Notes: generated by a model not told the origin, from the sequence alone. DNA of 64,000 nt from Armatimonadota bacterium (GCA_013314775.1 JABUFB010000011.1:197144-261143), one strand, 5' to 3'. Positions 3,306 to 49,905 are shown, counted from the first letter of the stretch. Program-made: numbers and translations.

Positions 3306-3382
3306 TGGCGCGCCCGGGAGGATTTGAACCCCCGACCCACGGATCCGAAGTCCGTTGCTCTATTCCACTGAGCTACGGGCGC
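3306..3382 (-). tRNA. tRNA-Arg(TCG)
   Basis: 77-base tRNA with acceptor GCGCCCG/CGGGCGC, anticodon loop CTTCGGA (anticodon TCG), T loop TTCAAAT and an encoded CCA. Most bacteria read CGN with an ACG (inosine) tRNA-Arg. A TCG species therefore either complements that tRNA or replaces part of its decoding here; the window alone cannot tell. Confidence 0.94.
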
Positions 3383-3429
3383 ACCCAAGTGAGGCCAAAC
3401 AGACGACGACCGCGTCTGCGGTAATTCAT

Positions 3430-3506
3430 TGGGGTGGGCGATGGGATTCGAACCCACGACCGCCGGAGCCACAGTCCGGTGCTCTGCCAGTTGAGCTACA
3501 CCCACC
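3430..3506 (-). tRNA. tRNA-His(GTG)
   Basis: Acceptor GTGGGTG/CGCCCAC with the His-specific extra 5' G (G-1, base 3506) opposite discriminator C73, anticodon loop CTGTGGC (GTG), T loop TTCGAAT and an encoded CCA. Confidence 0.96.
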
Positions 3507-3524
3507 ATCGAAATTGTCAACCGC

Positions 3525-3600
3525 TGGCGCGCCCGGCCCGGTTCGAACGGGCGACCCGCGGCTTAGAAGGCCGCTGCTCTATCCGCTGAGCTACGGGCGC
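3525..3600 (-). tRNA. tRNA-Arg(TCT)
   Basis: 76-base tRNA with acceptor GCGCCCG/CGGGCGC, anticodon loop CTTCTAA (anticodon TCT, reads AGA/AGG) and an encoded CCA. It shares its acceptor stem with tRNA-Arg(TCG) two genes downstream in the same cluster. Confidence 0.95.
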
Positions 3601-3640
3601 ACACTGGTAACCCACGTTCAGCCCGGCCGGGCAGCATGTC

Positions 3641-3716
3641 TGGAGCGGGCGACGAGATTCGAACTCGCGACATTCAGCTTGGAAGGCTGACGCTCTACCA
3701 ACTGAGCTACACCCGC
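3641..3716 (-). tRNA. tRNA-Gly(TCC)
   Basis: 76-base tRNA with acceptor GCGGGTG/CGCCCGC, discriminator T, anticodon loop CTTCCAA (anticodon TCC), T loop TTCGAAT and an encoded CCA. Confidence 0.96.
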
Positions 3717-3735
3717 TCGGTCCTTGGCCGGGATC

Positions 3736-3813
3736 TGGTCGGGGCGGCCGGACTTGAACCGGCGACCTTCTGGTCCCAAACCAGACGCGCTAGCCAAACT
3801 GCGCCACGCCCCG
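3736..3813 (-). tRNA. tRNA-Pro(TGG)
   Basis: First gene of the tRNA cluster. Acceptor CGGGGCG/CGCCCCG, anticodon loop TTTGGGA (anticodon TGG), T loop TTCAAGT and an encoded CCA. A strong promoter lies directly upstream at 3836-3865. Confidence 0.96.
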
Positions 3814-6629: not shown

Positions 6630-6860
6630 GTGAAGGAACTTGTTGAGTACCTAGTCAGGTCACTTGTGGATGACCCCGACCAAGTCGTGGTCACCGCTGT
6701 TGACCAGGGGCATACAAAGGTGTACCGGGTCGAGGTCGCTGAAGGCGATCTCGGGCAGGTCATCGGCCGCCAGGGGCGAATCGCCAACGCCCTGCGCACC
6801 ATACTCAGCACCGTCCGCACGTCGGACGGAACCCGGCACACTTTGGAAATCGTTTCCTGA
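6630..6860 (+). CDS. khpA: KhpA-type KH-domain RNA-binding protein
   Basis: Single KH domain RNA-binding protein, 76 residues. The KH GxxG loop is GRQG, within GQVIGRQGRIANALRTIL. GTG 6630 is preceded by CTGGAGG; the frame stays open upstream to 6543, but that extension has no family resemblance. KhpA proteins work with KhpB/Jag-type partners in RNA binding that affects cell-envelope growth in Gram-positives. Its position between rpsP and ylqD is the conserved one. Confidence 0.93.
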   Translation: MKELVEYLVRSLVDDPDQVVVTAVDQGHTKVYRVEVAEGDLGQVIGRQGRIANALRTILSTVRTSDGTRHTLEIVS

Positions 6861-6948
6861 CGCCCCGCGTTCCAACCCACGCGGCGACGTGTCAGCACGG
6901 CTGCGAATATCGGCGTGCCCCAGCGGCGCGCTTCCTGGAGGCCAGGCA

Positions 6949-7425
6949 ATGGATAGTGTAATCATCCGGCGCAATGTGTTCCTGCGCGCGATTGTGACCG
7001 AGAAACTGCGCACGGACCTGCAAAACGAGTTGCAGAATGCCGCCGACGAGATCGACCAGCACATCGCCGAGATTGACGCCCAGACCCGACACTATGTGAC
7101 CGATCTGCAGCGCACCGACCTGCAGCAGGCCATGGCGCTGCGCAAGCGCATCGAGGCCGAGAAGCGCAATCAGCAAGAACAACGCGACGCCCTGCTCGAG
7201 CGTAAGGCACAGGTCGCAGAGCTGCAGGACGGCACGGAAGTGCTGCGAGGCACGCTGGAGAGCTACGTTGAGCTCAAGGTCGGCGACAACCTCGCCGAGG
7301 TCCTGGGCGGCGTAGAAATCGTTACGAAGGACAATGAAGTCGTGGAGATTCGGCAGCGCCAGATTGTCGAAGAAGAGAATGCGGCGCCGGTTACGCCCAT
7401 CATCACGCCCGGATCAGACCGCTGA
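6949..7425 (+). CDS. ylqD: YlqD-family protein
   Basis: 158-residue, probably cytosolic protein of unknown function. Residues ~20-100 form a heptad-rich coiled coil (NELQNAADEIDQHIAEIDAQ, then Gln/Arg/Glu-rich helices). This is followed by a small beta-rich part (VELKVGDNLAEVLGGVEIV) and a Pro-rich tail. ATG 6949 has CTGGAGG upstream. The assignment rests on both this architecture and its place between khpA and rimM, where Bacillus carries ylqD. No catalytic motif is visible. Family assignment is likely, but function is not known. Confidence 0.8.
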   Translation: MDSVIIRRNVFLRAIVTEKLRTDLQNELQNAADEIDQHIAEIDAQTRHYVTDLQRTDLQQAMALRKRIEAEKRNQQEQRDALLERKAQVAELQDGTEVLRGTLESYVELKVGDNLAEVLGGVEIVTKDNEVVEIRQRQIVEEENAAPVTPIITPGSDR

Positions 7426-7444
7426 GGGATAGCGGAGCGGACCA

Positions 7445-7948
7445 ATGATTACCGTTGGCGAGATTGTGGCGGCGCACGGCCTGAACGGGCAGGTCCGCAT
7501 CGTTCTCCATACCGACTTCCCGGAGCGTTTTACCCAGATGGAATCCATCTGGGTAACGCGGCCCAATGGCGAGCGTGCACGCCGCAAGATACTTGACGTC
7601 AGCACGCACTCAACCAAGCCGCTATTGATCCTGAAGCTCGAGGGTATCTGGAACCGAGACACGGCGATGGCCTTTGTCGGTTCCATGCTGGAGATCGACG
7701 ACGATGAGGCGATGCCGCTCCCCGAGGGCGTGTACTATGAGCACGATCTCATCGGGCTGCAGGTGTTCACCACAGATGGCCGCGATCTTGGGCCTCTGAC
7801 TGAAGTCCTGCGAACCGGGGCGAATGACGTCTACGTGACCCCAACCTGTCTCATCCCCGCCATTCCCCAGGTGGTGCGGGAAGTGAACCTTGATCAGCGA
7901 CGCATGGTCGTCGAGCCCATGCCGGGGATGATCGACGAGGACGAATAA
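7445..7948 (+). CDS. rimM: Ribosome maturation factor RimM
   Basis: Assists 30S head assembly by binding S19. 167 residues with an N-terminal RimM beta-barrel ([16 protein letters not shown]) and a C-terminal PRC-barrel ([20 protein letters not shown]...TGANDVYV). ATG 7445 follows a GGAG. Its TAA overlaps the trmD ATG (TAATG at 7946-7950), pointing to translational coupling. Length is normal. Confidence 0.96.
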
Positions 7949-8709
7949 TGCACATCGACGTGGTCACGATCTTCCCGGAGTTTTTCGATGCTCCGCTGGC
8001 GTTGAGTATTCCAGGGCGAGCACAGAACGCCGGCATCGTGAGCATACGGGCGCACAACCTGCGCGACTATGCCGATGACGCTCACCGGACCGTGGATGAC
8101 GCGCCGTACGGTGGCGGCCCGGGGATGGTGATGAAGCCCGAGCCGCTCTTCAGGGCCGTCGAGAACCTGAAAGGCAGCGCGGCGGTCCCGGTTGTCTGTT
8201 TCACGCCCCAGGGCGAGACACTGACGCAGCGGGTTGTGGAGCGCCTCTCGAAGCACCCACGGCTCATTCTGCTCTGCGGCCGCTATGAGGGCTTCGACGA
8301 GCGGGTGCGCGAGGCGTTGGTCACGGATGAAGTCTCCCTCGGGGACTTCGTACTCAGCGGCGGAGAGCTGCCGGCCCTGGTGCTCATTGACGCACTCGTC
8401 CGCCTTCTTCCGGGAGCGCTGGGGAATGAGCAGTCGCCCCAGGAGGATTCCTTCTCCTGCGGGCTTTTGGAGCATCCGCATTACACGCGGCCTCCGGAAT
8501 ATCGCGGCATGCGTGTCCCGGATGATCTTCTGAATGGAGATCACGCCCGAGTGGCTCGCTGGAGACGGCGGGAGGCGCTCAGGCGTACCTTGCAGCGACG
8601 GCCCGACGTGCTGGCCACTGCTGATCTAACGAGCGAAGACCACCGATTACTTTCGGAACTGATGACCGAGATGCCCGGGGAGCACACCGGAGCGCCGGAC
8701 GCCGAGTGA
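7948..8709 (+). CDS. trmD: tRNA (guanine37-N1)-methyltransferase TrmD
   Basis: SAM-dependent SPOUT methyltransferase that makes m1G37 in tRNAs reading CUN, CCN and CGG, preventing +1 frameshifts. 253 residues. Conserved segments are [10 protein letters not shown] at the N-terminus, [24 protein letters not shown] (trefoil knot, SAM site) and [15 protein letters not shown]. Starts one base inside the rimM stop. Full length and intact. Confidence 0.97.
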
Positions 8710-8719
8710 GGGAGTCAAG

Positions 8720-9214
8720 ATGCAGGAGATACTCAACAGCGTAACTCAGAAGTACATGAAGAAGCGGGTCCCCGAGTTCAACATCGGCGACACCGTCCGC
8801 GTGATGGTGAAGGTCCGTGAGGGCGATTCCGACGAGAAGACACGCTTGCAGGCATACGAGGGCGTTGTCATCGCCCGGGCCGGCGGGGGCATCAACGAGA
8901 TGTTCACCGTCAGGCGCGTCACCCACGGCGTGGGCATCGAGCGCACCTTCCCGGTGCACTCGCCCAACGTAGATGACATTCTGGTCGTCCGACACGGCCG
9001 GGTCCGCCGCGCCAAGCTGTACTACCTGCGCTCTCGCGTGGGCAAGAAGGCCCGTGTCAAGGAGCAGTCCCGGGACACCGTGCACGCCCGGCAGGAAGCC
9101 GCGCGCGCATTGGCTGACAGGTATGCCGCTGAAGATGCCGCTGAGGCCGCGGCAGCCGCCGCTGCCGAAGCAGCCGCAAAAGCAGCTGAGTCGGCCGAGA
9201 CCGAACAATCCTGA
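8720..9214 (+). CDS. rplS: 50S ribosomal protein L19
   Basis: Large-subunit protein at the 30S-50S interface. 164 residues, the first ~115 matching the family ([34 protein letters not shown]). The last ~50 residues are an extension dominated by Ala and Glu that normal L19 (about 115 residues) lacks. The tail is probably unstructured or helical and surface exposed; its role is unknown. ATG 8720 is preceded by GAGGGAG. Confidence 0.97.
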
Positions 9215-9252
9215 CGCCGATCTGACGCCGGCCCGGACCGAAGGGACACTGC

Positions 9253-9930
9253 ATGAATGTCTATGCGTTCGAGAACACGTGGCACGTAATCGCCCTTATC
9301 GGCGGCCTGGTGCTGGCCCGCGCGGCAGTGTCGCACCTGGAGTCGATGCGGTCTCACCGTGCCGCGATTCTGGAGTTTATCGACTCGGCGCTAATTGCGG
9401 TCCTGCTTGTCTTCTGCATTCTGCGGCCCTTCGTGATCCAGGCGTTCTTCATTCCCAGCGGCTCCATGGAGAACACGCTGCAAGAGAACGATCGGATACT
9501 CGTCAACAAGTTCATCTACTACTTCCGCGAGCCCCGGGTGGGCGACATCGTGGTTTTCGACGCCCCGCCTCAAGCCTCGGATGTGAAGCGGGACTTCATC
9601 AAGCGAGTCGTGGGCGTTCCGGGCGATCGGATTGCGGTGAAGAACCACAAACTGTACCGCAACGGGAAGCCGGTAGATGAGCCGTTCATCAAGGAGCCGC
9701 CCTTGTATGTGTGGCCCCCCGGCGCCGAAGAGGGCGCCGAGGTGGTTGTCCCTGAGGGGCACGTCCTGGTTTTCGGCGACAATCGCAATGACTCCAACGA
9801 CGGGCACCGCTGGGAGATCATGCGCCCGGACGGTACCTGGGAGCCGGCCCCATTCCTGCCCCGGCCCAATGTGCTGGGCAAGGCGATGCTGATCTTCTGG
9901 CCGCCCCACCGCGTGGGTCTGCTGGACTGA
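9253..9930 (+). CDS. lepB: Signal peptidase I
   Basis: Membrane serine peptidase that removes signal peptides from exported proteins. 225 residues. Two N-terminal hydrophobic segments (about 11-26 and 43-62) precede the catalytic domain. The nucleophile Ser71 is in PSGSMENTL and the general base Lys117 in IKRVVGVPGD; box E (GDNRNDSNDGHRW) is present. ATG 9253 has AAGGGA upstream. It closes the translation block. The insertion between residues ~150 and 170 is modest. Intact. Confidence 0.95.
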   Translation: MNVYAFENTWHVIALIGGLVLARAAVSHLESMRSHRAAILEFIDSALIAVLLVFCILRPFVIQAFFIPSGSMENTLQENDRILVNKFIYYFREPRVGDIVVFDAPPQASDVKRDFIKRVVGVPGDRIAVKNHKLYRNGKPVDEPFIKEPPLYVWPPGAEEGAEVVVPEGHVLVFGDNRNDSNDGHRWEIMRPDGTWEPAPFLPRPNVLGKAMLIFWPPHRVGLLD

Positions 9931-10041
9931 TGCTGTTGGGCGAACTATGAGTGTTGTGTGCGGGCGATCCGGTTGCGGGTCGCCCTGCGTTTTCTGATGG
10001 GCCGGAATCCGGACTGGGACCGGCCAAGGATGAGGTGCGGC

Positions 10042-10806
10042 GTGCAGGAGAGGAACCTGGAGGGCATCACCGCGCTCGTAACGGGTGGGGCAAAACGCAT
10101 AGGCCGCGCCATCGCCCTCAAGCTGGCCGATCATGGCGCCAACGTGATCGTGCATTACAATGTTTCGGAGCAGGAAGCCGGCCACACCTGCCAGGAGATC
10201 TTGCGACGCGGTTCGCAAGCTTGGCCCCTGCAGGCGGATCTGTCGCAACCTGACGTCTGCCGGGACCTGGCGACAAGGGCAGCCGGCATCGCACAGCCCG
10301 TTCAGATTCTGGTCAACAACGCATCGGTCTTCACCCCCGGACGGCTCGCCGATTTGTCGCCCGAGGAGTTTGACCGCAACATGCATGTTCACGCACTGGC
10401 GCCCCTGGTCCTTACACGGTGGCTTGCCGAGAACCTGCCCGACGATGCCGAGGGTAGAGTGGTGAATCTCCTCGACGCCTACATCGGGACCTATCAATTC
10501 CAGCACGCAGCGTACAACTTGAGCAAGCGGGTGCTCCTGGACCTGACTCGGATGATGGCGGTGGAGTTCGCCCCTCGATTGACGGTGAACGCGGTGGCTC
10601 CTGGGGTCACGCTACCAGGACAGGATGGCACCGGCACGGGGGAGAGAGCTCTGGTCGAGGGCAGTCCGCTCCGCGCAGGCGCGAAACCCGGGGATATTTC
10701 GGATGCCGTGCTGTATCTCATCAATGCCCGGTTGGTGACCGGCCAGGTCCTTTATGTCGACGGAGGCGGTCATCTCGTCGGCGGGACCTGGGCGGACCAG
10801 GCATGA
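10042..10806 (+). CDS. Short-chain dehydrogenase, pteridine reductase-like
   Basis: NADPH-dependent SDR of about 254 residues. It has a TGGAKRIGRA dinucleotide loop, the NNAS motif, an active-site YNLSK, and an Asp in LLDAYIG at the position normally held by the catalytic Ser. The Asp-Tyr-Lys arrangement with the TGG-x-KRIG loop is the pattern of pteridine reductases and FolM-type dihydromonapterin reductases, suggesting a role in reducing pterin cofactors. The start is unsure: GTG 10042 has GAGG about six bases upstream, and ATG 10030 is the alternative. Substrate assignment is inference. Confidence 0.75.
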   Translation: MQERNLEGITALVTGGAKRIGRAIALKLADHGANVIVHYNVSEQEAGHTCQEILRRGSQAWPLQADLSQPDVCRDLATRAAGIAQPVQILVNNASVFTPGRLADLSPEEFDRNMHVHALAPLVLTRWLAENLPDDAEGRVVNLLDAYIGTYQFQHAAYNLSKRVLLDLTRMMAVEFAPRLTVNAVAPGVTLPGQDGTGTGERALVEGSPLRAGAKPGDISDAVLYLINARLVTGQVLYVDGGGHLVGGTWADQA

Positions 10807-10822
10807 CGCGCGAGGGGGGTAC

Positions 10823-11980
10823 ATGGACCAAGCCCTGGATCTCGCGCTCTGCGCCCTGGTCGTCATCGGTCACTTGGTTCTACTTGGCACCGTCAGCAAT
10901 CGGTGGCTGCTTCGGATACGCGACCAGTTACTCAAGCCCACGATCTTCGTGGCCCACACGCTGGCGTGGCTTGCGCTTCCCTGGGTCTGCATTTCTGCGA
11001 TCGGATGGCGCGACCTGGACCAGGCACTGCTGTTCCAGTTGGAGGGCCGCTCGCCGCTCTGGGCCATTTGGGTCTGGATAGCGGTCCTGGCGCCGGTTGT
11101 GGGGCTGGTGCTACAGTCGATCCCGGAGCCGCGCGACTGGCTGTACACCCGTCTCCTGAGATCGGAAAGCCGCATTACGCCCATCGACCGAGCCGCATTG
11201 CGCACCTGGAAAGCCCGCGCTATCGCCCGTTGGGACATGGCGCGTGTTGAGACGGTCAACCTGGAGCTGGCTCTGCCCCACCTCCCGTGGGCATTCGATG
11301 GCTTCCGGATCGCACATCTGTCCGACCTGCACTATGATGCGGAGCTGTCCCAGGTCATACTGCAGGTGGCTCTCGAGCAGGTCCGGCAGGCGAGGCCCAA
11401 CTTGATCGTGCTCACCGGGGACTCGGTGGTGACGACGGAAGCCATCGACGACTGCGCGCAGTATGTGGCGCTGCTGCGGCAGATCGCGCCGGTTGTGGCG
11501 GTCCTGGGCAACCATGACGAATGGGCCGACGCGGGAGCGCTCACGTCGGCATTCCAGAAACAGGGCGTGACTGTACTTCGCGACCGCGGGCTGCGTCTCG
11601 AGCGTGGCGGGAGCTCGATCTGGCTTGCGGGCGCCGGGGACTTCTGGTCGCCCGGCCAGCATCTCCCGACGGCCTTCGTGGGCAGGCGCGAGGGCGAATT
11701 CTGCATCCTGTTAGCCCATAACCCTGACCATATCACCGAGGCCGCCCGCGCAGGAGTGGACCTGCAGTTGTCGGGGCATACTCATGGTGGACAGATCGCG
11801 ATCCCTGTGGTCGGGCCATTGGTTGCGCCATCGCGACACGGCAGGCTGTACAGCCGCGGGCTGCACCTGCGAAACGAAACGCTGCTCTACGTGAATCGCG
11901 GGCTGGCGACCCATCCGCCGGTCCGCATCGGCAGCATGCCCGAAGTCACCATCATCACCCTGCGGCCCATTTCGGACTGA
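10823..11980 (+). CDS. Membrane-anchored calcineurin-like metallophosphoesterase
   Basis: 385-residue protein. Residues 1 to ~110 hold about three hydrophobic segments. The rest is a metallophosphoesterase fold with DLHYD, LTGDSV, GNHDEW, HNPD and GHTHGG, which supply the dinuclear metal ligands. Proteins with this layout (YaeI/YkuE type) hydrolyse phosphodiesters or pyrophosphates of lipids at the membrane, but the substrate cannot be inferred here. ATG 10823 is preceded by GAGGGGGG; the upstream open frame is discarded. The gene overlaps nothing and follows the SDR by 16 bases, so an operon is likely. Confidence 0.85.
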   Translation: MDQALDLALCALVVIGHLVLLGTVSNRWLLRIRDQLLKPTIFVAHTLAWLALPWVCISAIGWRDLDQALLFQLEGRSPLWAIWVWIAVLAPVVGLVLQSIPEPRDWLYTRLLRSESRITPIDRAALRTWKARAIARWDMARVETVNLELALPHLPWAFDGFRIAHLSDLHYDAELSQVILQVALEQVRQARPNLIVLTGDSVVTTEAIDDCAQYVALLRQIAPVVAVLGNHDEWADAGALTSAFQKQGVTVLRDRGLRLERGGSSIWLAGAGDFWSPGQHLPTAFVGRREGEFCILLAHNPDHITEAARAGVDLQLSGHTHGGQIAIPVVGPLVAPSRHGRLYSRGLHLRNETLLYVNRGLATHPPVRIGSMPEVTIITLRPISD

Positions 11981-17380: not shown

Positions 17381-17650
17381 GTTCGACACAGGTCTCAATA
17401 GAAGGCTGTGACGGGGAGGAGTAGGGGACCCGCAGACGGTTGAGAGAGCCGGTGACCAGGTGAAAGTGCCGGCCCGGATGCCCCCCGAAAGTCGCCCCTG
17501 AGCTGCGCGGCTGAACGGTTCAACTGCTAAGTCACGCCGGGTACGCCCGATATCGCGTCCAAGAGCCATCCCTGCGCGGGTGGAAACTGGGTGGTACCGC
17601 GGGAGCCATCGGCCTCTCGTCCCATTGGGATGAGAGGCCGTTCTTGTTTG
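17381..17650 (+). promoter_or_regulatory. T-box riboswitch (tRNA-Val sensing) upstream of valS
   Basis: Leader with an AGTA element in gaggagtagg near 17420, an AGAGAG...GGTGAAAGTGCC Stem I apex, the specifier in a CCGAAAGTCGCC context (GTC, Val, at 17491-17493 followed by a purine), and the T-box sequence GGGTGGTACCGCGG near 17590. The bulge TGGT (17592-17595) can pair with tRNA ACCA ends. It is followed by a terminator: stem starting CGGCCTCTCGTCCCA at 17610, ending GAGAGGCCG at 17640, then TTCTTGTTT. Uncharged tRNA-Val should stabilise the antiterminator and turn valS on. Confidence 0.92.
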
Positions 17651-39120: not shown

Positions 39121-42100
39121 TCAGTCCGTGATCAACAGTCGCACGAAGCTGGAGCCCTGGAAGAGCGTGTTCAGGATTCCGGAGAATGTCATGCGAGACA
39201 CTTGCGGGATGTAGATGATATCGCCATCCTGCAACAATGGGTTGCCCTTCTGGTCGCCCCTGAGCGCGGTTCGCAGCGGACTGATCTCTGCTGCTCCGAG
39301 CCGGCCGTCGGGCAGCTTGCGGACGAGAATCGCGCGGTTGGGCGCTCCCTGACGCTCGATCCACCCCCCGGCCTCCCCGAGTACGTCCACTAGCCGGTCG
39401 CCCTTCTTGAAAGTGTAGTTCCCGGGGTTCTTCACGAGGCCGAGGATCGTGACACGGTGCATTGATTCCGAGACGATGATCAAGTCTCCATCCTGCAGAA
39501 GGGGATCGACCGGAACCTCGGACCCACGATCGATCATCGACATATCGATGAACTGCTGCTCCCCATTGCGCACAAGTTTCACGCAGTCGGTGGCTGCCGT
39601 GCTCGTGAAACCGCCCGCCTGGGCAATTGCCTGGGACAGTCTGGCGCCGGACCGCAGCGTATAGTGTCCCTCCCGCGCCACCTGCCCAAGCACGGCGACT
39701 TCCGGCAACTGGAGACTTCCCACGACCACAGTGTCGCCATCTTCCAGAAGCAGGTTCTGCTCGTCGCTCCGGTCGCTTTGAATCCGCGCCAGATCAACCT
39801 CGATGGTCTTCCCACCGCGCAGGATCGTAGCTTTGTCTGCGCGCGCTGTTTCCGAGATTCCCTCCGCAAGCGCGATCGCGTCAAGGACTCGGGCTCCCGG
39901 TTGGAACGGGAAGCGACCGGGGCGGTTGAGATGCCCTACCACTGAGACCCGGTAGTCTGCAGCAGGCACCACAAGGGTGTCGCCAGGCTTCAGTTTCGGG
40001 TCAATCGCCCCCGCTTCCCCCTGAAGAATGGGTCGAAGATCAACCTCAGTCCTGCTGCCGTCCTTGCTGGTGATAGACGCCTTGTCCAGAGCAGCGGTGT
40101 CCTTCACTCCGAGCGCGCGCGCCAGGGCCCACGAGACTCGCCCCTCACCGATCAACGTATAGGTGCCCGGCTGCTGCACCGCGCCGGCGACGGTCACGGG
40201 GTCGAGAGCGTTGACGACGATGGTGTCGCCCGAGAGAATGACCGGGTCGGCATCGCTGCCGGGTCGCGCCATCGCTGCCGCAACGTCAATGGTGGTCAGG
40301 GTGCCATCGGCCCGCATGAGTGTAGCCGTTCCAACCCCAGGTACGCTGAGACCAGCCGCACGTGCCACGGCCGCAGAGAACCGCTCTCCTCGCCCTACGG
40401 GATAGCGCCCCGGCGTTGTGACCGCACCGAGAATGGCAACGTCGCCCTGGGTGCGCGTGGGCACAAAGAGCACATCGCCTTTGGCCAGCAACAGGTTATC
40501 ACCCGCACCGGATAGCAGTTCCAGCACGTTGACTTCAACTTGCGTGCCGTCAGCCCGCCGCAGCACCGCTCGCTCCGGTTCGGCGTCGCTGGTCGCGCCG
40601 CCGCCCTTGGCGTAAAGATCGGACAGGCGGTCGCCCGTATGCACCGAATACAGCCCCGGATTGCGCACTGCGCCAACCACGGCGGCGAAACCGCGCAAGG
40701 AAGTTCCGACCACCAAGGTGTCTCCGCCACGCACCGGAACGTTCGCTGCCGGGTCATTGCGCACGAAAATCCCGTCCAAGTCCACGGCCAGCACGGTGCC
40801 GTCTTCGCGCATCAGGGTCGCAGTCGCGGCGTCCGCATTCGCGGCGAGCCCGCCGGCGCCGGCGATGACATCAGACACACGCGACCCTGTATACACCCGA
40901 ACCTTGCTGGGGGTTGTGACCTGCCCAAGCACCGCGACCTCGGCCCGCTCTTCAGCACTCAGAATCACTGTGTCTCCATCGAGCATGGTAACGTTCGCAT
41001 CCGGATCGAGGCGATCCAGCACCGCGTCCAGGTCGATCTCAACTGTCTCACCCGATCGCCGCACCAGCTTCGCGGGCTTGAGCGGCTTGTTGGTATTGGC
41101 GCCGCCCGCAGCTGCCAGGGCATCGGACAGCTTCGAGCCCGGCGGCAGTTCCACGTACCCGGGCCTGGCCAGTTCGCCAAGAAGCGTCACGCCCACGGTC
41201 TTTGTCTCAACGAAGAGCGTGTCGCCGTCGAGCAGCACGAGGTTCCGCACGGAGTCAGGCGCATTCATCGCGTCCGCGATCGGGACCTCAACCGTGGTGC
41301 CATCAGGCCGCAAGACGCTTACCGACTGGGCTCGAGATCCCGCTGCAAGGCCACCCGATGCAGCCAACGCGTCGGATACTCTGGCTCCCACAAGCAGACG
41401 CCGGTGCCCCGGGACAGCGACCTCGCCCAGCACCGCGACCTGCAGGTCTGCGGTTTCCACCAGGATGGTGTCACCCTCACGAAGCACGATGTTGGCCGCA
41501 TTGCTGGCGTCGCGCAGGATCGCACGCAGATCCACATTCTCTACGGTTCCGTCGGCCCGCATGAGCTTTGCAGACTGAGCGCGTGAGCCGGGAGCAAGCC
41601 CACCGGCAGTTGCCAGGGCGTCCGACACCCGAGCCCCGGGCCGCAAGCCCACATGTGCGGGCTGCGCTACCTCACCCAGCACCGCCACACGGATCTGCGC
41701 GGTGTCGATGACGATGATGTCGCCGTCCTCAAGCAACGGATTGGCCCCGGGCGCGTCGCCGGACATCGCCAGTGACGGGTCGACCAAGAGGGTCTCCCCG
41801 CGCATCCGGATTACTTTCGCCTGGTTGCGGTCCGCATTCGCAGTCAGACCGCCGGCGGCCGCGAGGGCATCGGCGAACCGGTTCCCGCGGCGCATGGCGT
41901 ACCGGTTGGGCTGCGCAACGGCGCCCAGGACCGATACATTCAGGGCAGCGCTTCGAACCACCAGGGTATCGCCGTCGCGCAGGGAAATGTTGAACTCGGG
42001 CTTGCGATCGATCAGCACGGCGTCGAGATCGATGGACACCAGCGTCCCATCGTCGCGCATGAGGTCGGCCACATTGGAGGTCTCACTTGTCAGACCCGCG

Positions 42101-43509
42101 ATCGCGATGAGATCTACCAGCTTTCGTGCTTCGCCCAAGGGGTAACGCCCCGGCTGTCGCACCGCTCCGAGAACGGCAACCTGGCCCCGGTCCAGCGTGC
42201 GAACGAGCAACGTGTCGCCGGGAGCAAGGGCTATATCCGCGCCGGGGTTCTTCTCGTCGAGCACCCCGCGCAGGTCGACTGGGATCACCGACCCGTCCTG
42301 CCGGACGATCGACGCTTCAGCGCGACGCGGATCGCCCAGCAAGCCGCCACTCGCCGCGATAGCCGCGGAAACGCGCGTTCCCGGCAAGAGTGTATGACGC
42401 CCTGGCGTCTGCACTGTGCCCAGGACCGTGTAGTCAGGCAGGTCGGGAATAAAGAGGGTGTCGCCCGACGCAAGGACAAGATCAGCAGCGCCCTGCTGCC
42501 CGCTGAGGACCTGATCGAGAGCGACCTTGAGAATGGTTCCATCCGCCCGCAGGAGTGATGCAGCCGATGGGTCTCCAACCGCCGTAATCCCGCCGGCCAT
42601 GCCCACGGCGTCTGACAACCGCGTCACCTTGTCGCGGTTGAGCGTCTTGACTCCTGGCTCATTCACCTGCCCAAGCACCGCGATGGTCTGCGGAACCGCC
42701 ACGGGAACGAGGATCGCGTCGCCGTCAACGAGGCGCAGGTTTGCCGGATCGTTGATATCTTCGGCGATTCGGCGCAGATCGATGACCGTCGTCTCGCTCC
42801 CGGCGCGTGTAAACTTGGCCTGGGACGGGTCAGCGGTGGGCAGGTAGCCGCCCGCCAGCGCCAGGGCATCGTGCAGCCGCAAGCCCTTTTCAGGAATCCG
42901 GAACATACCGGGCGTCTGCACAGCTCCCAGGACCGCGACCCGCTCCTCGCGGCGTTCATACACGATAAGGGTGGACCCACCAACGACCGGCGTACGCGGC
43001 GCAGCAGGGTCCACGGACATCTCAGCGTCGAGGTTCACGGTGGTGCGCTCCCCTGCGGGGCTGATCAGGAGCGCATTGGACATATCCGCGGTCGGGGACG
43101 CACCGCCCGCACTGGCAAGCGCCTGCTGGACGGTGAAAGGTTCGCGCATCACGTAGGAGCCCGGGTTCTTGACAGCACCGACCACAAACACCCGGTCCTC
43201 GCGATACTCCACGATATCCACCGACACTACGGGGTTGCGCAGTTCCTTGAGTAGCGCCTGGCGTAATTCGCCTGCGAGCCTTCCTGGGGTCTTCCCGGCA
43301 GCCGAAATCTCGCCCGCGTAGGGGTGCATGAACTTGCCGTCGGGACGGATCTGCACCCCGGTCATTGAGAACTCGGGGTGGTTCCAGACGGTGACGGCGA
43401 TGGTATCGCCGGTCCGCAGGACGTAGGCGTTATTGACCAGATCCGCAGCCGGCGCGACAGTCGCTACCGCCGCCCCGAGCAGAACGGCGATCAGGCCCAG
43501 GCGTATCAT
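39121..43509 (-). CDS. Giant polysaccharide export protein with about 16 SLBB repeats
   Basis: 1462 residues. Signal peptide (MIRLGLIAVLLGAAVATVAPA, no lipobox Cys), a Poly_export (Wza-like) domain (about 28-105), then about 16 tandem SLBB repeats of ~80-88 residues. Each opens like VAVLGAVxxPGRY and contains RxSDALAxAGG, followed by a strand ending GDTLxV. It ends with a short C-terminal helix-strand. Wza-type exporters normally carry only one to three SLBB units, so this one is exceptional. It is probably an outer-membrane or periplasmic ring or tether for exopolysaccharide. ATG 43509 has GAGGAG. Distal gene of the locus reading leftward from the fusion enzyme. Confidence 0.88.
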   Translation of the reverse strand: MIRLGLIAVLLGAAVATVAPAADLVNNAYVLRTGDTIAVTVWNHPEFSMTGVQIRPDGKFMHPYAGEISAAGKTPGRLAGELRQALLKELRNPVVSVDIVEYREDRVFVVGAVKNPGSYVMREPFTVQQALASAGGASPTADMSNALLISPAGERTTVNLDAEMSVDPAAPRTPVVGGSTLIVYERREERVAVLGAVQTPGMFRIPEKGLRLHDALALAGGYLPTADPSQAKFTRAGSETTVIDLRRIAEDINDPANLRLVDGDAILVPVAVPQTIAVLGQVNEPGVKTLNRDKVTRLSDAVGMAGGITAVGDPSAASLLRADGTILKVALDQVLSGQQGAADLVLASGDTLFIPDLPDYTVLGTVQTPGRHTLLPGTRVSAAIAASGGLLGDPRRAEASIVRQDGSVIPVDLRGVLDEKNPGADIALAPGDTLLVRTLDRGQVAVLGAVRQPGRYPLGEARKLVDLIAIAGLTSETSNVADLMRDDGTLVSIDLDAVLIDRKPEFNISLRDGDTLVVRSAALNVSVLGAVAQPNRYAMRRGNRFADALAAAGGLTANADRNQAKVIRMRGETLLVDPSLAMSGDAPGANPLLEDGDIIVIDTAQIRVAVLGEVAQPAHVGLRPGARVSDALATAGGLAPGSRAQSAKLMRADGTVENVDLRAILRDASNAANIVLREGDTILVETADLQVAVLGEVAVPGHRRLLVGARVSDALAASGGLAAGSRAQSVSVLRPDGTTVEVPIADAMNAPDSVRNLVLLDGDTLFVETKTVGVTLLGELARPGYVELPPGSKLSDALAAAGGANTNKPLKPAKLVRRSGETVEIDLDAVLDRLDPDANVTMLDGDTVILSAEERAEVAVLGQVTTPSKVRVYTGSRVSDVIAGAGGLAANADAATATLMREDGTVLAVDLDGIFVRNDPAANVPVRGGDTLVVGTSLRGFAAVVGAVRNPGLYSVHTGDRLSDLYAKGGGATSDAEPERAVLRRADGTQVEVNVLELLSGAGDNLLLAKGDVLFVPTRTQGDVAILGAVTTPGRYPVGRGERFSAAVARAAGLSVPGVGTATLMRADGTLTTIDVAAAMARPGSDADPVILSGDTIVVNALDPVTVAGAVQQPGTYTLIGEGRVSWALARALGVKDTAALDKASITSKDGSRTEVDLRPILQGEAGAIDPKLKPGDTLVVPAADYRVSVVGHLNRPGRFPFQPGARVLDAIALAEGISETARADKATILRGGKTIEVDLARIQSDRSDEQNLLLEDGDTVVVGSLQLPEVAVLGQVAREGHYTLRSGARLSQAIAQAGGFTSTAATDCVKLVRNGEQQFIDMSMIDRGSEVPVDPLLQDGDLIIVSESMHRVTILGLVKNPGNYTFKKGDRLVDVLGEAGGWIERQGAPNRAILVRKLPDGRLGAAEISPLRTALRGDQKGNPLLQDGDIIYIPQVSRMTFSGILNTLFQGSSFVRLLITD

Positions 43510-43567: not shown

Positions 43568-44506
43568 TCAGCCGCCGGCTTGCCGATACCATTCGACCAC
43601 GCGCTCGAGACCTTCGCGCGTGCCCACTTGCGGGTCGTACCCGAAGGCTTCGCGGGCAGCCGAGATATCCGCTAGCGAATGCTTCACGTCGCCGGCCCTT
43701 GCCTCCGCATAAATCGGTTCGATGTTCGTCCCGATGATGTCATTGAGGTGCGCCAGCAGTTCGTTCAGGCTGATCCGGGCCCCGCAGGCAATGTTGAAGG
43801 CTTGTCCAGACCCTCCCGGCGATGTGGCCGCGCGGATATTAGCCTGGATTACATTGGCCACGTAAGTGAAATCCCGCGACTGCTCGCCGTCACCGAAGAT
43901 AGTCGGGCGCTCGCCCTTGAGCAGGAGTGTGACGAACAAGGGGATCACTGCCGCATACTGCGAGGTGGGGTCCTGACGCGGCCCAAAAACGTTGAAGTAC
44001 CGCAAGCAGACTGTCTCAAGTCCGTACACGTGAGTGAAGGACGCCGCATACGCCTCATCTGCAAGCTTCGAAGCGGCGTATGGCGAGATCGGCAGCGGTC
44101 GCATGCCCTCGTGTTTCGGCAGTTCGGGATTGGAGCCGTACACCGATGACGAGGAGGCGATGACTACTCGCTTCACACCCGCGTCCCTGGCAGCGATAAG
44201 CACATTCAGGGTGCCATTCACATTCGCTTCCGTGGTGGACACAGGGTCTTTGACCGAGCGCGGAACCGAGGGCAGCGCAGCCTGATGGAGGACATAATCG
44301 GCGCCTTCGAAGGCCGGGCGAATCGCCTCCAGGTCCCGGATGTCCTCCTCGAAAAGGGCAATGCTCTCTTCGATGTCGGAGAGATTCTCGCGGCGTCCCG
44401 TGGCGAAATTGTCGAGCACCCGCACGGTATCGCCGGCTTCGAGCAATGCCCGGGTGATATTGGAGCCGATGAACCCGGCGCCGCCTGTGACGAGGAAAGT
44501 TGCCAT
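43568..44506 (-). CDS. NAD-dependent sugar epimerase, WbpP/UDP-GlcNAc 4-epimerase-like
   Basis: 312-residue extended SDR. NAD-binding GGAGFIGSN near the N-terminus, ALPSVPRSVKDPVST, VIASSSSVYG, and catalytic YAASK. It most resembles the WbpP/UDP-GlcNAc or UDP-GalNAc 4-epimerase group (RYFNVFGPRQDPTSQYAAVIP), which makes precursors of surface glycans. ATG 44506 has GGGGGT upstream; an open frame to 44716 is ignored. Alternatives are UDP-glucose or UDP-glucuronate 4-epimerase. It lies between the SLBB and Gfo/Idh genes. Confidence 0.85.
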   Translation of the reverse strand: MATFLVTGGAGFIGSNITRALLEAGDTVRVLDNFATGRRENLSDIEESIALFEEDIRDLEAIRPAFEGADYVLHQAALPSVPRSVKDPVSTTEANVNGTLNVLIAARDAGVKRVVIASSSSVYGSNPELPKHEGMRPLPISPYAASKLADEAYAASFTHVYGLETVCLRYFNVFGPRQDPTSQYAAVIPLFVTLLLKGERPTIFGDGEQSRDFTYVANVIQANIRAATSPGGSGQAFNIACGARISLNELLAHLNDIIGTNIEPIYAEARAGDVKHSLADISAAREAFGYDPQVGTREGLERVVEWYRQAGG

Positions 44507-44580: not shown

Positions 44581-45558
44581 TCAGGCGAGTGTGAACGGTT
44601 GGTTCGTTTGCAGGGACCGGTCGGCGGCGGCGAGCATCTCCACTACCCGAACACCGTCCCACGCATCGTTCACCGGGCGCTGGCCCGACTCGATGCAGTG
44701 GATGAGACTGGCGCACTCGGCCTGCAGAGGCTGGGTGTCGCTGTAACCGATTGGTTCACTTTCAGACTCTATGTTACTTAGATCGGTTCCGATGCCGGAC
44801 GCCGAGAAATGCACCTTCTGCCCAGCCGCCATGTCGTCCCAGATGACCATGCCGGACGAGCCGACGATCACAACCTTGCGTACGCTCTCCGGATGCAACC
44901 AGGACACATGCACGTGCAAGGAGACACCGTCTTCATACAGGCCATCCATGAACACGATATCTTCGATATCCGGCTGGATATAGCAGTGTCCGACGGCCCG
45001 CACAGTTCGAGGCACCCGCTGGAGCCAGTAGCTTGCGATGGACAGGTCGTGAGGCGCGAAGCTCCAAAGCACGTTCTCCTCCCGCCGCACACGACCGAGC
45101 TTGAGGCGCTGGAAGTGCAAGTGACGCAGCGTTCCCAGACGCCCAGAATCGATGAGTTCTCGAATCGCCTGGACTGGCCCGCTGTGCTCCATCAGGTGCC
45201 CGACCATGACCGTCAGGCCCCTCTTGTCCGCGAGTTCTGCCAGTGCGCGGGCGTCGGCCGGGTCAAGACACATGGGTTTCTCAACGAACACGTGCTTCCC
45301 TGCCAGCAGCGCCTGCCGCGCGATCTCATAGTGAGTCGACGGCGGCGTGGCGATGGACACCAAATCCACGGACGGGTCCGCCACAAGGTCTTCGAAGCTC
45401 GCAAAGCCCCTCGCGGACGGGTACTGCTCCAGTATCTGGTCGAGACGCGAAACATCGGACCGCGCAACCGCGGCCAAACGCGCGCCCTCGGTTTCATTCC
45501 AGACACGCAGCAGGTTCTTTCCCCAGGCCCCGCAACCGACGCATCCCACACGGATCAT
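44581..45558 (-). CDS. Gfo/Idh/MocA-family oxidoreductase
   Basis: 325-residue NAD(P)-dependent enzyme. N-terminal Rossmann fold with GCVGCGAWGKN and the motif VFVEKPMCL (EKP Lys is catalytic in the family), then an alpha/beta C-terminal domain with WSFAPHDLSIASYW. Probably oxidises or dehydrates a nucleotide sugar for surface polysaccharide. Its ATG overlaps the upstream stop (ATGA, 45555-45558), so it is translationally coupled to the fusion enzyme. Exact substrate not visible. Confidence 0.88.
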   Translation of the reverse strand: MIRVGCVGCGAWGKNLLRVWNETEGARLAAVARSDVSRLDQILEQYPSARGFASFEDLVADPSVDLVSIATPPSTHYEIARQALLAGKHVFVEKPMCLDPADARALAELADKRGLTVMVGHLMEHSGPVQAIRELIDSGRLGTLRHLHFQRLKLGRVRREENVLWSFAPHDLSIASYWLQRVPRTVRAVGHCYIQPDIEDIVFMDGLYEDGVSLHVHVSWLHPESVRKVVIVGSSGMVIWDDMAAGQKVHFSASGIGTDLSNIESESEPIGYSDTQPLQAECASLIHCIESGQRPVNDAWDGVRVVEMLAAADRSLQTNQPFTLA

Positions 45559-48284
45559 GGCTTGCTGACCCCCTGGGCTTCAGCCAGGTTGATGACACCC
45601 GCACCCTCGACGGAACAATAGCGCTTCGCGGCGAAACCGTGCTCTGCCAGTTCGGCAATGAGCGCCTCGCAGGCATCATCCTGGGCAAGAATCATGCAGC
45701 AGCCTCCCAGACCCGCGCCGGCGATCTGCGCGCCGAGAATGCCCGGCTGCCTCCGCGCGATGTCCACAATCAGGTCGATCTCTCGAGTGCTGCAGGCGTA
45801 CTTGCCGGGCTGAAGGTGGATCTGAGCGCGGGCGATGCGCTCCGGCTCGCCGCTGCGCAGGTCAGCGATGAGTGCGTCGAAGTAATCGTCGCCCACATCA
45901 TACTCCCAGGGCACTTCACGAAGCTGATCGTCGTGAGCGACGACCCGGTCGCCGTCGTGGGAGATGAACCACAGTCGGCCGAATCCCTCAGCGTCGCCGG
46001 AGCGCAGGTGCTCAATGCACCGCTTGGCGCGCTCCACTTCCGCGAGCCCGTAGAGAACCACGCCGCGGATGTTCAGGACGACTTCTTCATCGCCCAGCGT
46101 GTTCAGAAGGTCCTTGATTTTCCTGGTGAACTCGGCGTCGAAGGGCCCATAGCGCTCCAGTAACCCTTTCCGCGTGATCTCGACAGGAAGCTGCTTGAGA
46201 ACCTCGTACAGATCCGCGAGGCTGATGCCCAGGTTGTCAGGGCGGACGTCCCGCAGATGGTGGATTGATGGCGCGAATTCGGGCATCAGCTGGCGAATAA
46301 TCGCCTCGCCCGCTACGTACTCCAACACACGCTTGTTGTAGGTGTATCGGGCGCCCTGGTTTTTCTTTGCCTGCACTCCGGAATTGCAGACCACAACCGA
46401 CTTCCCCTCGAAGAACGAGAGGAACTCGTTGATCTCAAAGGGGAAAAAGCCCACATGGGCGACTTGCCCCCGACGACAGCACTTGATGGCAGCGTGGTCC
46501 GCCGCGCCGCCTCGAGTGCCCACGAACCACTCGCCCTCACCGCACAGGTCCACCATGATGTTCGGCCGCACCGGCAGGTGGTTCACGGCCACGAGCACCT
46601 CGGCCGCCCCAACCACTACCGCAGAAGACGAACTCAGCCCCGACCCTACCGGAATCGTCCCGTGGGTGACGATGTCCGCCCCGAGCAAAGGGGTGCCTCG
46701 GAAGCGCTCCTGCAGCCTCAATGCCGCCGCGCGCACGTAGTGAGACCAGTCCCCGCTGCTCACCAGCGCCAGCGTCTTTGGGCTGTTTACACACGACAGC
46801 CAGTCCGACCAGTCCAGTGAGGCAATATCGCGCGAGATGGAAAACTCCCGGCGTTCGAAGACCGCGTCTAGGGTGTTGGCAAGCGTGATGTGGTCATCTC
46901 GGCGGGGTGCGGCGACCATGATGATCTCGTCGCTGATGGCGATGACGTTCGTGTTGCCGCCCCGGTGATCGATGTGTCGCCCCATCAGGTTCACTCGTCC
47001 GGGCGACCGCACGATGAAAGCTTCGCGGTCCTCGCCATGCAGCCGGATGAACTCATCGAGCGCTGCCAGGAACTCCCCGCGTTTGGTTTCGTGCAAGTCC
47101 GGTGCCGGCCCGTAGATGGTCTCGAAGAGCGCTCGCACATCCGGGCCGTTCTCGGCGAGAATGCGCCGCCATTCGCCGGCGGGACGAAGCGCTCCACTGG
47201 TCTCAATATCTTCAGGTTCCACGTATTCCTCGTCCCCCTGGCCGCCGAGACGCAGTTTGCGTTCGATCTCGGCCAACTCTTCGGGGGTGTTGAAGCCCAT
47301 GGAATCGTCGGGGTTATCAACACAGACCGTGCGCACCCGAAATCGGGGACGGCCATTCTTGATGCGCGAGGACGCCATGTACTTGATGCAGTCAGTGAGG
47401 TACTCCTCGCCCTGAGCGTTGTCGGAATTCAGCGACTCCAGCGCCTCGTAGAGTGCCGCCGCGCGGAACAGGTAGCCTGAGAGGTTGGCCTCGGTGGCTC
47501 CAGCCTCCACGTCCGCCGCTGCCACGGACGTGGGCTCTCCATCCGTCCAGAGGGTGATCGTCGTACTTGCGCGCAGGGGTGCCAACAAAGCCCGCATCTC
47601 GTCCGCGGTCAGTGTCTCGCCGCTTGCGGAGCGGGTGAAAAGCTCGCCGCAGGCCTTGCGGGCCTTCTGGTCCGAGCTGAAGCGGCGCCGGATGCACTCC
47701 AGCACCGTTTCGGGCGACAACCGAGCGTCGTTGGCTTCGCACAGCGCCTCGAGTTCCGCCACGACGCTGGACAGCGCGATCTCGCTGGTCTCGACGATGG
47801 CAGCCGCGTTTCCGTCACCATCGTACACGACTCGTCCCGAGGTTGGGTTGTCTTCCTTGCGGCCAACGAGGAACACCAGGTCGCTGTCGGTCTCCCGCAT
47901 GGTGTCGGCCAGGCGGTGAATGATGTGGGGGGCTACTAGCCGGTCGCCGACAACGACGAATACCAGGCCGTCATAGCCCGTGTCCTGGAGCATCCTGACG
48001 CCGCAGCGAGCTGCGTTGCCGGTTCCGCGGGGTTCGGGCTGGTAGGCGAAACTCACATTGGGCACGCGCGCGCCCACCGTTTGGAGAACCTGCTCACCCA
48101 GTGCGCCCACAACAATGATGTGGTGGTTGATCCCGCAGGCCTCGTAGTTCGCCAGGGCCCGCAGGATAATGGGGACCCCGCCAACCTCGAAGCAGACCTT
48201 GTGCTTTGAGTCGTTGCGCATCCGAGTACCCCGGCCACCGGCCAGGATCACAGAAACAACACGACTCTCAGGCGAAGACTCCAT
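45555..48284 (-). CDS. Fused sugar-1-phosphate nucleotidylyltransferase and galactokinase-type GHMP sugar kinase
   Basis: 909 residues. Residues ~1-330 are an NTP_transferase domain with LAGGRGTRM and EVGGVPIILRAL (GlmU/RmlA-like). Residues ~395-909 form a GHMP kinase: PGRVNLMGRHIDH (galactokinase signature), PVGSGLSSSSA (phosphate-binding loop), GTRGGAADH (probable catalytic Asp) and AGLGGCCMIL. Together the two would phosphorylate a free sugar and activate it to an NDP-sugar in one polypeptide, in the manner of Bacteroides Fkp. Which sugar is unknown. ATG 48284 is preferred over TTG 48308, but its ribosome site is weak. Coupled to the downstream oxidoreductase. Confidence 0.85.
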   Translation of the reverse strand: MESSPESRVVSVILAGGRGTRMRNDSKHKVCFEVGGVPIILRALANYEACGINHHIIVVGALGEQVLQTVGARVPNVSFAYQPEPRGTGNAARCGVRMLQDTGYDGLVFVVVGDRLVAPHIIHRLADTMRETDSDLVFLVGRKEDNPTSGRVVYDGDGNAAAIVETSEIALSSVVAELEALCEANDARLSPETVLECIRRRFSSDQKARKACGELFTRSASGETLTADEMRALLAPLRASTTITLWTDGEPTSVAAADVEAGATEANLSGYLFRAAALYEALESLNSDNAQGEEYLTDCIKYMASSRIKNGRPRFRVRTVCVDNPDDSMGFNTPEELAEIERKLRLGGQGDEEYVEPEDIETSGALRPAGEWRRILAENGPDVRALFETIYGPAPDLHETKRGEFLAALDEFIRLHGEDREAFIVRSPGRVNLMGRHIDHRGGNTNVIAISDEIIMVAAPRRDDHITLANTLDAVFERREFSISRDIASLDWSDWLSCVNSPKTLALVSSGDWSHYVRAAALRLQERFRGTPLLGADIVTHGTIPVGSGLSSSSAVVVGAAEVLVAVNHLPVRPNIMVDLCGEGEWFVGTRGGAADHAAIKCCRRGQVAHVGFFPFEINEFLSFFEGKSVVVCNSGVQAKKNQGARYTYNKRVLEYVAGEAIIRQLMPEFAPSIHHLRDVRPDNLGISLADLYEVLKQLPVEITRKGLLERYGPFDAEFTRKIKDLLNTLGDEEVVLNIRGVVLYGLAEVERAKRCIEHLRSGDAEGFGRLWFISHDGDRVVAHDDQLREVPWEYDVGDDYFDALIADLRSGEPERIARAQIHLQPGKYACSTREIDLIVDIARRQPGILGAQIAGAGLGGCCMILAQDDACEALIAELAEHGFAAKRYCSVEGAGVINLAEAQGVSKP

Positions 48285-48546
48285 GCAGAGAGACCCCGAT
48301 TGCTTCAAAGATTACAGGCACACAAATATGGCGGTGCTACAGACCCCACACCGTGAGGAGATGCGGTGCGCCCGCGTTTGCGTACCGCGGCGACACCATG
48401 AGATTACCATGATCCACCCACCTTGGCAAGCGTACCCAACCCTGCCACCGGGTCCGGGCAGGTATTCCGGGGCCCGAGGCCGAACAAGCCGCAGGCAACT
48501 CAAGAGCCGTGCCCGGCAAGCGGGCCGAACCCAGGGAGGAAGTAGA

Positions 48547-49197
48547 GTGGGCCGTGCGATCAAGCGACTTCTCGACATCATCGGCGCATCTTTGGGCCTG
48601 GTGATTCTCTCCCCCGTCATCGCCCTGGTGGCTCTGGCGATATGGCTCAACATGGGAACTCCTGTGGTCTTCCGGCAAGTGCGCCCGGGCTACAAGGGCC
48701 GGCTCTTCACCATCTACAAATTCCGCACCATGCGGAATGCTACTGGGCCGGACGGCAGGCCGCTCCCGGACGAACAACGCCTGACCACGCTGGGCAAGAT
48801 CATCCGAAAGACTAGCATGGATGAGCTTCCCCAGTTGGTGAATGTGATCAAGGGCGAGATGTCCTTCGTGGGCCCCAGGCCGCTGCTGACTGCCTATCTG
48901 GAGCGCTACAGCCCTGAACAGGCGCGACGGCATGACGTCCCGCCGGGCATTACCGGCTGGGCTCAGGTCAACGGTCGGAACGCCATATCCTGGGAGCAGA
49001 AATTCGAGTACGATGTGTGGTATGTGGACAATTGGAGTCTCCTCCTCGACCTGCGCATACTCGCTCTCACTCTCCTGAAGGTGGTTCGTCCCGAAGGCAT
49101 CTCCCAAGCCGGATCAGCGACCATGGAGGAGTTCATGGGCTCGCCGGCAACTTCAGAGAACGGCGAATCAGATCAAGCGCAGACCAAAGACGCATAG
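48547..49197 (+). CDS. PglC-type phosphoglycosyl transferase (initiating sugar transferase)
   Basis: 216-residue monotopic phosphoglycosyl transferase that moves a sugar phosphate from UDP-sugar to undecaprenyl phosphate, starting the repeat unit. One N-terminal hydrophobic segment (IIGASLGLVILSPVIALVALAI), then KFRTM, the DELPQL motif and GPRPLL. It is short (no WcaJ-type N-terminal helices), as in PglC. GTG 48547 with AGGGAGGA six bases upstream; the longer frame to 48169 is spurious. Plus strand, opposite to its neighbours, and followed 42 bases later by the acetyltransferase. Confidence 0.92.
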   Translation: MGRAIKRLLDIIGASLGLVILSPVIALVALAIWLNMGTPVVFRQVRPGYKGRLFTIYKFRTMRNATGPDGRPLPDEQRLTTLGKIIRKTSMDELPQLVNVIKGEMSFVGPRPLLTAYLERYSPEQARRHDVPPGITGWAQVNGRNAISWEQKFEYDVWYVDNWSLLLDLRILALTLLKVVRPEGISQAGSATMEEFMGSPATSENGESDQAQTKDA

Positions 49198-49239
49198 AGA
49201 TTGGAGATTGGCGCAGCCGACCATTGGAGGTTTCATGCG

Positions 49240-49905
49240 ATGGCTGATGTCGTGGTGCTTGGAGCAGGCGGACTTGGCGTCGAAGTTGCCGAGGCTGTAC
49301 AAGCAGCAATAGATGACGGAGCGGACTTCAATCTGCTGGGATTCCTGGACGACCGGGATGAACTGCAGGGCACCCAGATCATTGGGCTACCCATTGTGGG
49401 CAAGGGGGACTGGATCGCGGGGCATCCTCAAGTCCGCGTCATTCCCGGCATCGGCCACCCCCGCAGCCGCTTCCGGGCCGTCCAGCGGCTCACGGCAATC
49501 GGGGCAACCTGGGAGACGGTGGTCCACCCGGCCGCCCAATTCTCCCGCTCTGCAACCATTGGGACAGGTTCCGTGGTCCTCGCCGGGGCCATCGTCTCAG
49601 CGCGCGTCGTGATGGGTGACTTCACCCTCCTGTACTACCTGGCATCCGCCGCCCATGACACAGTGATGCAGGACTTCGCCTCCGCAATGCCCCAGGCGGC
49701 TCTCTCGGGATCGGTGACCGTGGGCACGGGGACATTCATTGGAGTGCACGCGGCGGTGAGACAAGGCGTGAGAGTAGGCGAGTGGACCATCCTCGGCGCG
49801 GGCGCGGTGGCTGTGAAGGATGTGCCGCCGCTATGCGTGGCCATGGGTGTACCGGCGGCTCCACGGAAAACTTACGACACGCCTGACGAGATGCCGGGGA
49901 TCTGA
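49240..49905 (+). CDS. NeuD/PglD-type sugar O- or N-acyltransferase
   Basis: 221 residues. N-terminal Rossmann-like domain (DVVVLGAGGLGVEV) followed by a left-handed beta-helix of hexapeptide repeats (about 95-190: PAAQFSRSATIGTGSVVLAG, then later turns). Such proteins acetylate UDP-amino sugars or sialic-acid precursors. Its pairing with a PglC-like transferase recalls the bacillosamine pathway (PglD), although no aminotransferase is nearby. ATG 49240 has GGAGG. Terminates 26 bases before the converging glycosyltransferase. Confidence 0.85.
   Translation: MADVVVLGAGGLGVEVAEAVQAAIDDGADFNLLGFLDDRDELQGTQIIGLPIVGKGDWIAGHPQVRVIPGIGHPRSRFRAVQRLTAIGATWETVVHPAAQFSRSATIGTGSVVLAGAIVSARVVMGDFTLLYYLASAAHDTVMQDFASAMPQAALSGSVTVGTGTFIGVHAAVRQGVRVGEWTILGAGAVAVKDVPPLCVAMGVPAAPRKTYDTPDEMPGI

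Follow-up and report, generated by a model that had tools for sequence, protein, structure and literature searches.

Bacteria usually activate free sugars by means of several separate enzymes. In cell-wall sugar recycling by AmgK and MurU, the 1-kinase and the uridylyltransferase are separate proteins, and AmgK is not a GHMP kinase. Known fusions of a sugar kinase with a nucleotidyltransferase are Fkp and the zebrafish glucuronokinase/pyrophosphorylase, both of which carry the nucleotidyltransferase in front (PMC11982464, PMC3938481). The prokaryotic relatives of the pyrophosphorylase half of the zebrafish protein have been described as single-domain (PMC3938481). The window considered here, the whole stretch of 64,000 nucleotides of Armatimonadota DNA that was analyzed, encodes a 909-residue protein in which a nucleotidyltransferase is followed by a galactokinase-type GHMP kinase.

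The fusion gene occupies positions 45555..48284 of the minus strand, as defined by its frame, its Pfam domains and the alignment of its relatives. It begins with an ATG at 48284, ends with a TGA closing at 45555 and has 0 internal stops, which bears out exactly the coordinates of the one uninterrupted frame reported in the first-pass annotation. The three motifs reported there are all present in this frame: LAGGRGTRM at residues 14-22, PGRVNLMGRHIDH at residues 428-440 (the sugar-binding motif by alignment; 46965..47003) and GSGLSSSSA at residues 547-555 (the ATP-binding motif; 46620..46646), all on the minus strand. The GC content of the gene is 0.633 versus 0.631 for the window, with 78% GC at third positions. 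Pfam recognizes a nucleotidyltransferase at residues 11-165 (NTP_transf_3, 5e-15; NTP_transferase, 6e-10) and a galactokinase-type GHMP kinase at residues 411-882 (GHMP_kinases_N, 3e-13; GalKase_gal_bdg, 8e-13; GHMP_kinases_C, 2.5e-9), all above curated cut-offs. The structure predicted for the 909-residue protein has a mean pLDDT of 90.3 and a pTM of 0.66, and the fold of both halves is a confident prediction.

Of the 80 relatives recovered when bacterial and archaeal genomes were scanned, 79 carry both domains in the same order within one open frame; the fusion first proposed from this single locus is real and far from a chance arrangement. Identities to the fusion protein range from 34 to 93%, the closest relative (93%) being L002 from an Armatimonadetes MAG, and the eightieth relative, L068, consists of two overlapping frames, for which a genuine break and a frameshift introduced by sequencing are the alternatives. 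The same domain order is kept by full-length relatives from Armatimonadota, Planctomycetota, Verrucomicrobiota/Lentisphaerota, Chloroflexota, Bacillota and a handful of other groups. Among the 291 Armatimonadota genomes scanned, about 22 match without interruption over the full length, and in several others the match is in pieces. The gene is rarer elsewhere (6 of 246 Planctomycetota, 26 of 288 Verrucomicrobiota and 2 of 301 Chloroflexota genomes, these being samples in which standalone kinases are counted in). Its sporadic occurrence in these three samples rules out a conserved housekeeping role, and the function of the fusion gene is an accessory one. No relative was found in the plasmid records searched. 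One fused homologue, L078, comes from a MAG with the archaeal label Candidatus Sigynarchaeum and could reflect transfer or contamination.

Standalone relatives of the kinase that lack the N-terminal domain also exist, and two of them adjoin a separate nucleotidyltransferase gene. The unfused kinase of L102 (256 bits to human GALK2, against 181 for the next match) lies directly behind a nucleotidyltransferase gene, and a similar gene pair is found in L097; the occurrence of the two halves as adjoining separate genes supports a common pathway for both. In the kinase tree the fused and standalone forms interleave and the deepest branches are standalone, with at least 3 changes of state forced by the starred branches and 6 by parsimony. 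This topology would allow for one fusion event with later losses.

The N-terminal half (residues 8-351; 47232..48263, minus strand) is a GlmU-type nucleotidyltransferase domain according to Pfam, structure comparison, conservation and alignment with GlmU. Among solved structures, GlmU UDP-GlcNAc pyrophosphorylases come closest to it, and the model matches M. tuberculosis GlmU with a Z of 32.5 and an rmsd of 1.7 over 249 aligned residues. Both the fold and the catalytic and sugar-binding residues of the GlmU uridylyltransferase domain are found in this half, which keeps GxGTRM, Lys29, Asp114, Glu165, Asn267 and NAQGE, and R21, K29, Q82, G87, T88, D114, E165, N267, N289 and N332 are invariant or nearly so in an alignment of 77 fused proteins. 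It is this kinship with GlmU that suggests UTP as the nucleotide donor. The fusion differs from GlmU in a helical insert about 95 residues long (166-262; 47499..47789, minus strand), which is seen in the model and as a gap against GlmU in the alignment and which sits between the GlmU-like E165 and N267. It also lacks the C-terminal acetyltransferase beta-helix of GlmU, residues 396-900 being kinase and no hexapeptide domain being found by Pfam.

The C-terminal half (residues 396-900; 45585..47099, minus strand) is placed by Pfam, profile search and structure comparison in the galactokinase/GalNAc kinase branch, with GalKase_gal_bdg and the GHMP N and C domains. The description of this half as a galactokinase-type kinase in the first-pass annotation holds for the family, but the nearest relative is GalNAc kinase and the sugar-site Glu is replaced by Arg. 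Human GALK2 (2a2c) is the best match both by sequence and by Foldseek, and the best solved relative of the kinase-half profile is human GalNAc kinase at 183 bits, followed by yeast galactokinase at 140 bits. Structure comparison gives a Z of about 35 against galactokinases and 33.5 against GalNAc kinase, and the score against the NCBIfam galactokinase equivalog TIGR00131 (132.7 bits) falls below its cut-off of 226.65. AbGHMP (PDB 9ulx) is a moderate relative, on which a literature search found no paper. Across the 77 fused proteins, R430, H437, D439, the SSSS loop, D596 and GAGLGG are invariant or nearly so; D596 is the predicted catalytic base within GTRGGAADH (residues 589-597; 46494..46520, minus strand), a motif that also contains the conserved R591. 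Inactive key residues, which had been named as grounds for abandoning the proposal, are not what the alignment contains, and neither half looks dead.

The sugar pocket of the fusion kinase is distinctive. Galactokinases and GalNAc kinase read GEHxD in the sugar-binding motif, whereas the fusion has Arg at the position of this Glu (R436; 46977-46979, minus strand), as do 79 of the 80 aligned proteins and, once the set was widened, 106 of the 107 fused ones. The GEHxD Glu presumably touches the sugar on its C6 side, and we take it to be the glutamate that, to go by the title of work by McAuley et al. from 2017 cited in PMC11982464, is reportedly critical in galactokinase. The change from Glu to Arg at 436 makes plain galactose an unlikely substrate and an acidic sugar a possible one. 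R591 corresponds to a Glu in human GalNAc kinase (GTRGG versus GTEGG), and with Arg at both sites the pocket is unlike that of GalNAc kinase. Among standalone kinase relatives, position 436 is Arg, Met, Val, Pro, Leu, Thr, Ser or Glu. One standalone clade (L097, L098, L099 and L177) reads NPHSDHQG or NPHCDHQG with neither GRH nor GEH, which suggests a different substrate. In L091, L090 and L093, the gene for a standalone kinase with Val at 436 is succeeded by a protein frame of some 1,620 residues or more, and comparison of the L091 frame (6723-11594) with Pfam at E 1e-5 gave no family.

On the minus strand downstream of the fusion lie a Gfo/Idh/MocA oxidoreductase (44581..45558; Pfam), whose ATG overlaps the TGA of the fusion as ATGA, a 312-residue WbpP/TviC-type NAD-dependent sugar-nucleotide 4-epimerase of the SDR type, recognized by profile matches (43568..44506), and, in the same direction, a polysaccharide export protein of 1462 residues with 14 SLBB domains (39121..43509; Pfam), which is much longer than the usual Wza-type exporter. 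Divergent on the plus strand are a Bac_transf sugar-phosphate transferase (48169..49197; Pfam/NCBIfam), whose true start is probably further downstream, and a NeuD/PglD-family sugar acetyltransferase (49201..49905; 172.7 bits, cut-off 160.8). The polysaccharide locus also holds a PseB/CapD-like UDP-GlcNAc dehydratase, a flippase-like protein and a Wzc-like kinase. Elsewhere in the window, a T-box leader of 103.6 bits (17399-17627) lies just upstream of, and overlaps the start of, a 913-residue frame on the plus strand, and seven tRNA genes are clustered at 3029-3813 on the minus strand.

Clustering of the neighborhoods of 80 loci yielded no single universal partner gene, and thus the sugar is not deducible from one operon type. 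The connection to a polysaccharide locus drawn in the first-pass annotation holds here and in relatives where a co-directional epimerase follows the gene, but other lineages carry the gene away from loci of this kind. Most Armatimonadota relatives have a WbpP/TviC-type epimerase close by on their own strand, either before or after the gene, as do L157 (from a sample around a Verrucomicrobiota genome) and L057 of Clostridiaceae, and a TviB-like UDP-GlcNAc dehydrogenase is also present at L057 and at L018 (501.9 bits for L018). NagA occurs in 6 of 136 loci; in 5 of them, which come from three phyla, it is adjacent and on the same strand. A protein similar to the acetyltransferase half of GlmU is present in 5 of 136 loci, adjacent upstream in 5 of 5 and always beside standalone kinases. 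With one in ten flank positions assumed to count as adjacent, the binomial chance of such adjacency is about 5e-5 for NagA and 1e-5 for the GlmU half, figures that serve as a guide only since the loci are not all independent. An informative neighbor is missing for most relatives outside Armatimonadota.

The best explanation of these observations, to which we assign a probability of roughly 0.52, is a bifunctional N-acetylhexosamine (HexNAc) 1-kinase/UDP-HexNAc pyrophosphorylase that provides a salvage shortcut to UDP-HexNAc. The C-terminal domain would use ATP to phosphorylate C1 of a free N-acetylhexosamine (GlcNAc, GalNAc or a closely related derivative), with D596 as the base and R430 assisting. 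The sugar 1-phosphate would then move to the N-terminal half, where D114 and N289 would hold Mg2+, and attack UTP, and transfer of UMP would give UDP-N-acetylhexosamine and pyrophosphate; the roles of these two residue pairs are presumably those known from galactokinase and GlmU. The UDP-sugar might in turn be passed on to the epimerase and oxidoreductase encoded in the same direction and to the surrounding polysaccharide locus.

We infer both enzyme activities from the families of the two domains, and the sugar class from the nearest relatives and the gene neighbors. The reading as kinase and pyrophosphorylase is favored because both catalytic sets are near-invariant across the 80 relatives. 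A HexNAc substrate is favored because the kinase profile scores highest against human GalNAc kinase, because the best solved matches of the N-terminal half are GlmU, because a WbpP/TviC-type SDR occurs in the window and in relatives together with the TviB-like dehydrogenase of L057 and L018, and because NagA or the GlmU acetyltransferase half adjoins in some of the 136 loci. The core of the earlier inference, salvage of a free hexose to an NDP-sugar, is thus supported by the domains, the conserved catalytic residues and the conservation of the fusion across phyla, and neighboring genes narrow the sugar, which had been left unspecified, to N-acetylhexosamines as the best class. Against a HexNAc substrate, the NagA and GlmU-half links are confined to few loci, the latter all beside standalone kinases; no NagA was found in the genome to which the window belongs, and this genome encodes a canonical GlmU (538.8 bits), which makes the fusion dispensable for UDP-GlcNAc itself. 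A second galactokinase-like gene in the same genome keeps GEH, so that the genome has another member of the galactokinase family besides the fusion, just as the canonical GlmU gives it another source of UDP-GlcNAc. The Arg residues at 436 and 591 also count against HexNAc, as the pocket they form may suit an acidic sugar.

A broader and more tentative proposal can also be made, which we regard as possible though doubtful: a widespread uncharacterized family would make a UDP-acidic sugar (UDP-HexNAcA, UDP-uronate or UDP-MurNAc) in one polypeptide, its galactokinase specificity rewired by a Glu-to-Arg pocket switch, and the Met, Val, Pro and Leu switches of standalone relatives would mark other substrates. 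Salvage of a uronic acid is unlikely when taken by itself. GlcA or GalA would here be phosphorylated at C1 and converted to UDP-GlcA or UDP-GalA, with R436 and R591 binding the carboxylate. The adjoining 4-epimerase could act on UDP-GlcA, but it is WbpP/WbgU-like, scoring 286 bits to WbpP and far less to 6zl6 (127 bits) and MoeE5 (155 bits), both of which we take to be UDP-GlcA-type 4-epimerases; the GlmU-like N-terminal domain and the presence of NagA and the GlmU acetyltransferase half among neighbors also argue against it. The fusion would on this account be a bacterial counterpart, from other kinase stock, of the animal glucuronokinase/pyrophosphorylase, which has the same domain order (PMC3938481). 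Still less likely is salvage of an acidic amino sugar, HexNAcA or MurNAc, to UDP-GalNAcA/GlcNAcA or UDP-MurNAc with the carboxylate held by the same two residues; AmgK and MurU reach UDP-MurNAc by a comparable route with separate enzymes. This would join the HexNAc-type neighbors (TviB- and TviC-like) with the two conserved Arg, and MurU is a weak match of the N-terminal domain in the PDB profile search; however, no peptidoglycan-recycling neighbor other than NagA was recognized, the gene is sporadic in the three phyla sampled above, and UDP-MurNAc is unsuited to a 4-epimerase. Salvage of galactose (or of arabinose or fucose) to UDP-Gal, bypassing GalT, agrees with the galactokinase signature (PF10509) and fold but is improbable, given the Arg in place of the GEHxD Glu, the higher sequence-profile score of GalNAc kinase over every galactokinase and the second, GEH-bearing gene. 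Least probable is that only one half is active, for instance as a kinase with a regulatory nucleotidyltransferase, for although standalone kinases exist and extremely low pyrophosphorylase activity was measured for the zebrafish fusion (PMC3938481), the catalytic residues of the N-terminal domain are near-invariant in all fused relatives.

If the HexNAc salvage reading is true, the fusion would offer a one-protein route to UDP-amino sugars, and so a useful biocatalyst, and would explain the reuse of amino sugars for surface polysaccharides in little-cultured phyla. The Glu-to-Arg change, together with the Met, Val and Pro variants of standalone kinases, amounts to a natural experiment on substrate choice in GHMP sugar kinases.

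A literature search found no paper on this fusion, although one may still exist, and the family is apparently uncharacterized. The L-fucokinase/GDP-fucose pyrophosphorylase Fkp of Bacteroides fragilis resembles it in joining an N-terminal nucleotidyltransferase to a C-terminal GHMP kinase that together convert a free sugar to an NDP-sugar. However, the N-terminal half of Fkp has a left-handed beta-helix (PMC11982464), which the model of the fusion protein lacks, and the fusion pairs a GlmU-like N-terminal half with a kinase of galactokinase/GalNAc-kinase type that bears the GalKase_gal_bdg signature. With no Fkp-type Pfam domain and no beta-helix between the domains of the model, membership in the Fkp family is ruled out; the 60 top PDB matches to the full-length profile include no Fkp chain. 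Zebrafish DrGKUP, a glucuronokinase/putative UDP-GlcA pyrophosphorylase, shares the domain order and the predicted logic of a kinase followed by a UTP-dependent pyrophosphorylase, but has 619 residues versus 909 and a glucuronokinase as its kinase; the galactokinase signature of the fusion argues against a DrGKUP-type glucuronokinase sequence, a comparison made by description. Human GALK2 (2a2c), unlike the fusion, keeps the GEHxD Glu and the Glu of GTEGG and has no nucleotidyltransferase domain, and AmgK with MurU shares the kinase/uridylyltransferase logic for amino sugars, which the fusion places in one chain. The fusion is a conserved variant of the sugar-kinase/pyrophosphorylase design known from Fkp and the zebrafish protein, apparently built from different component families.
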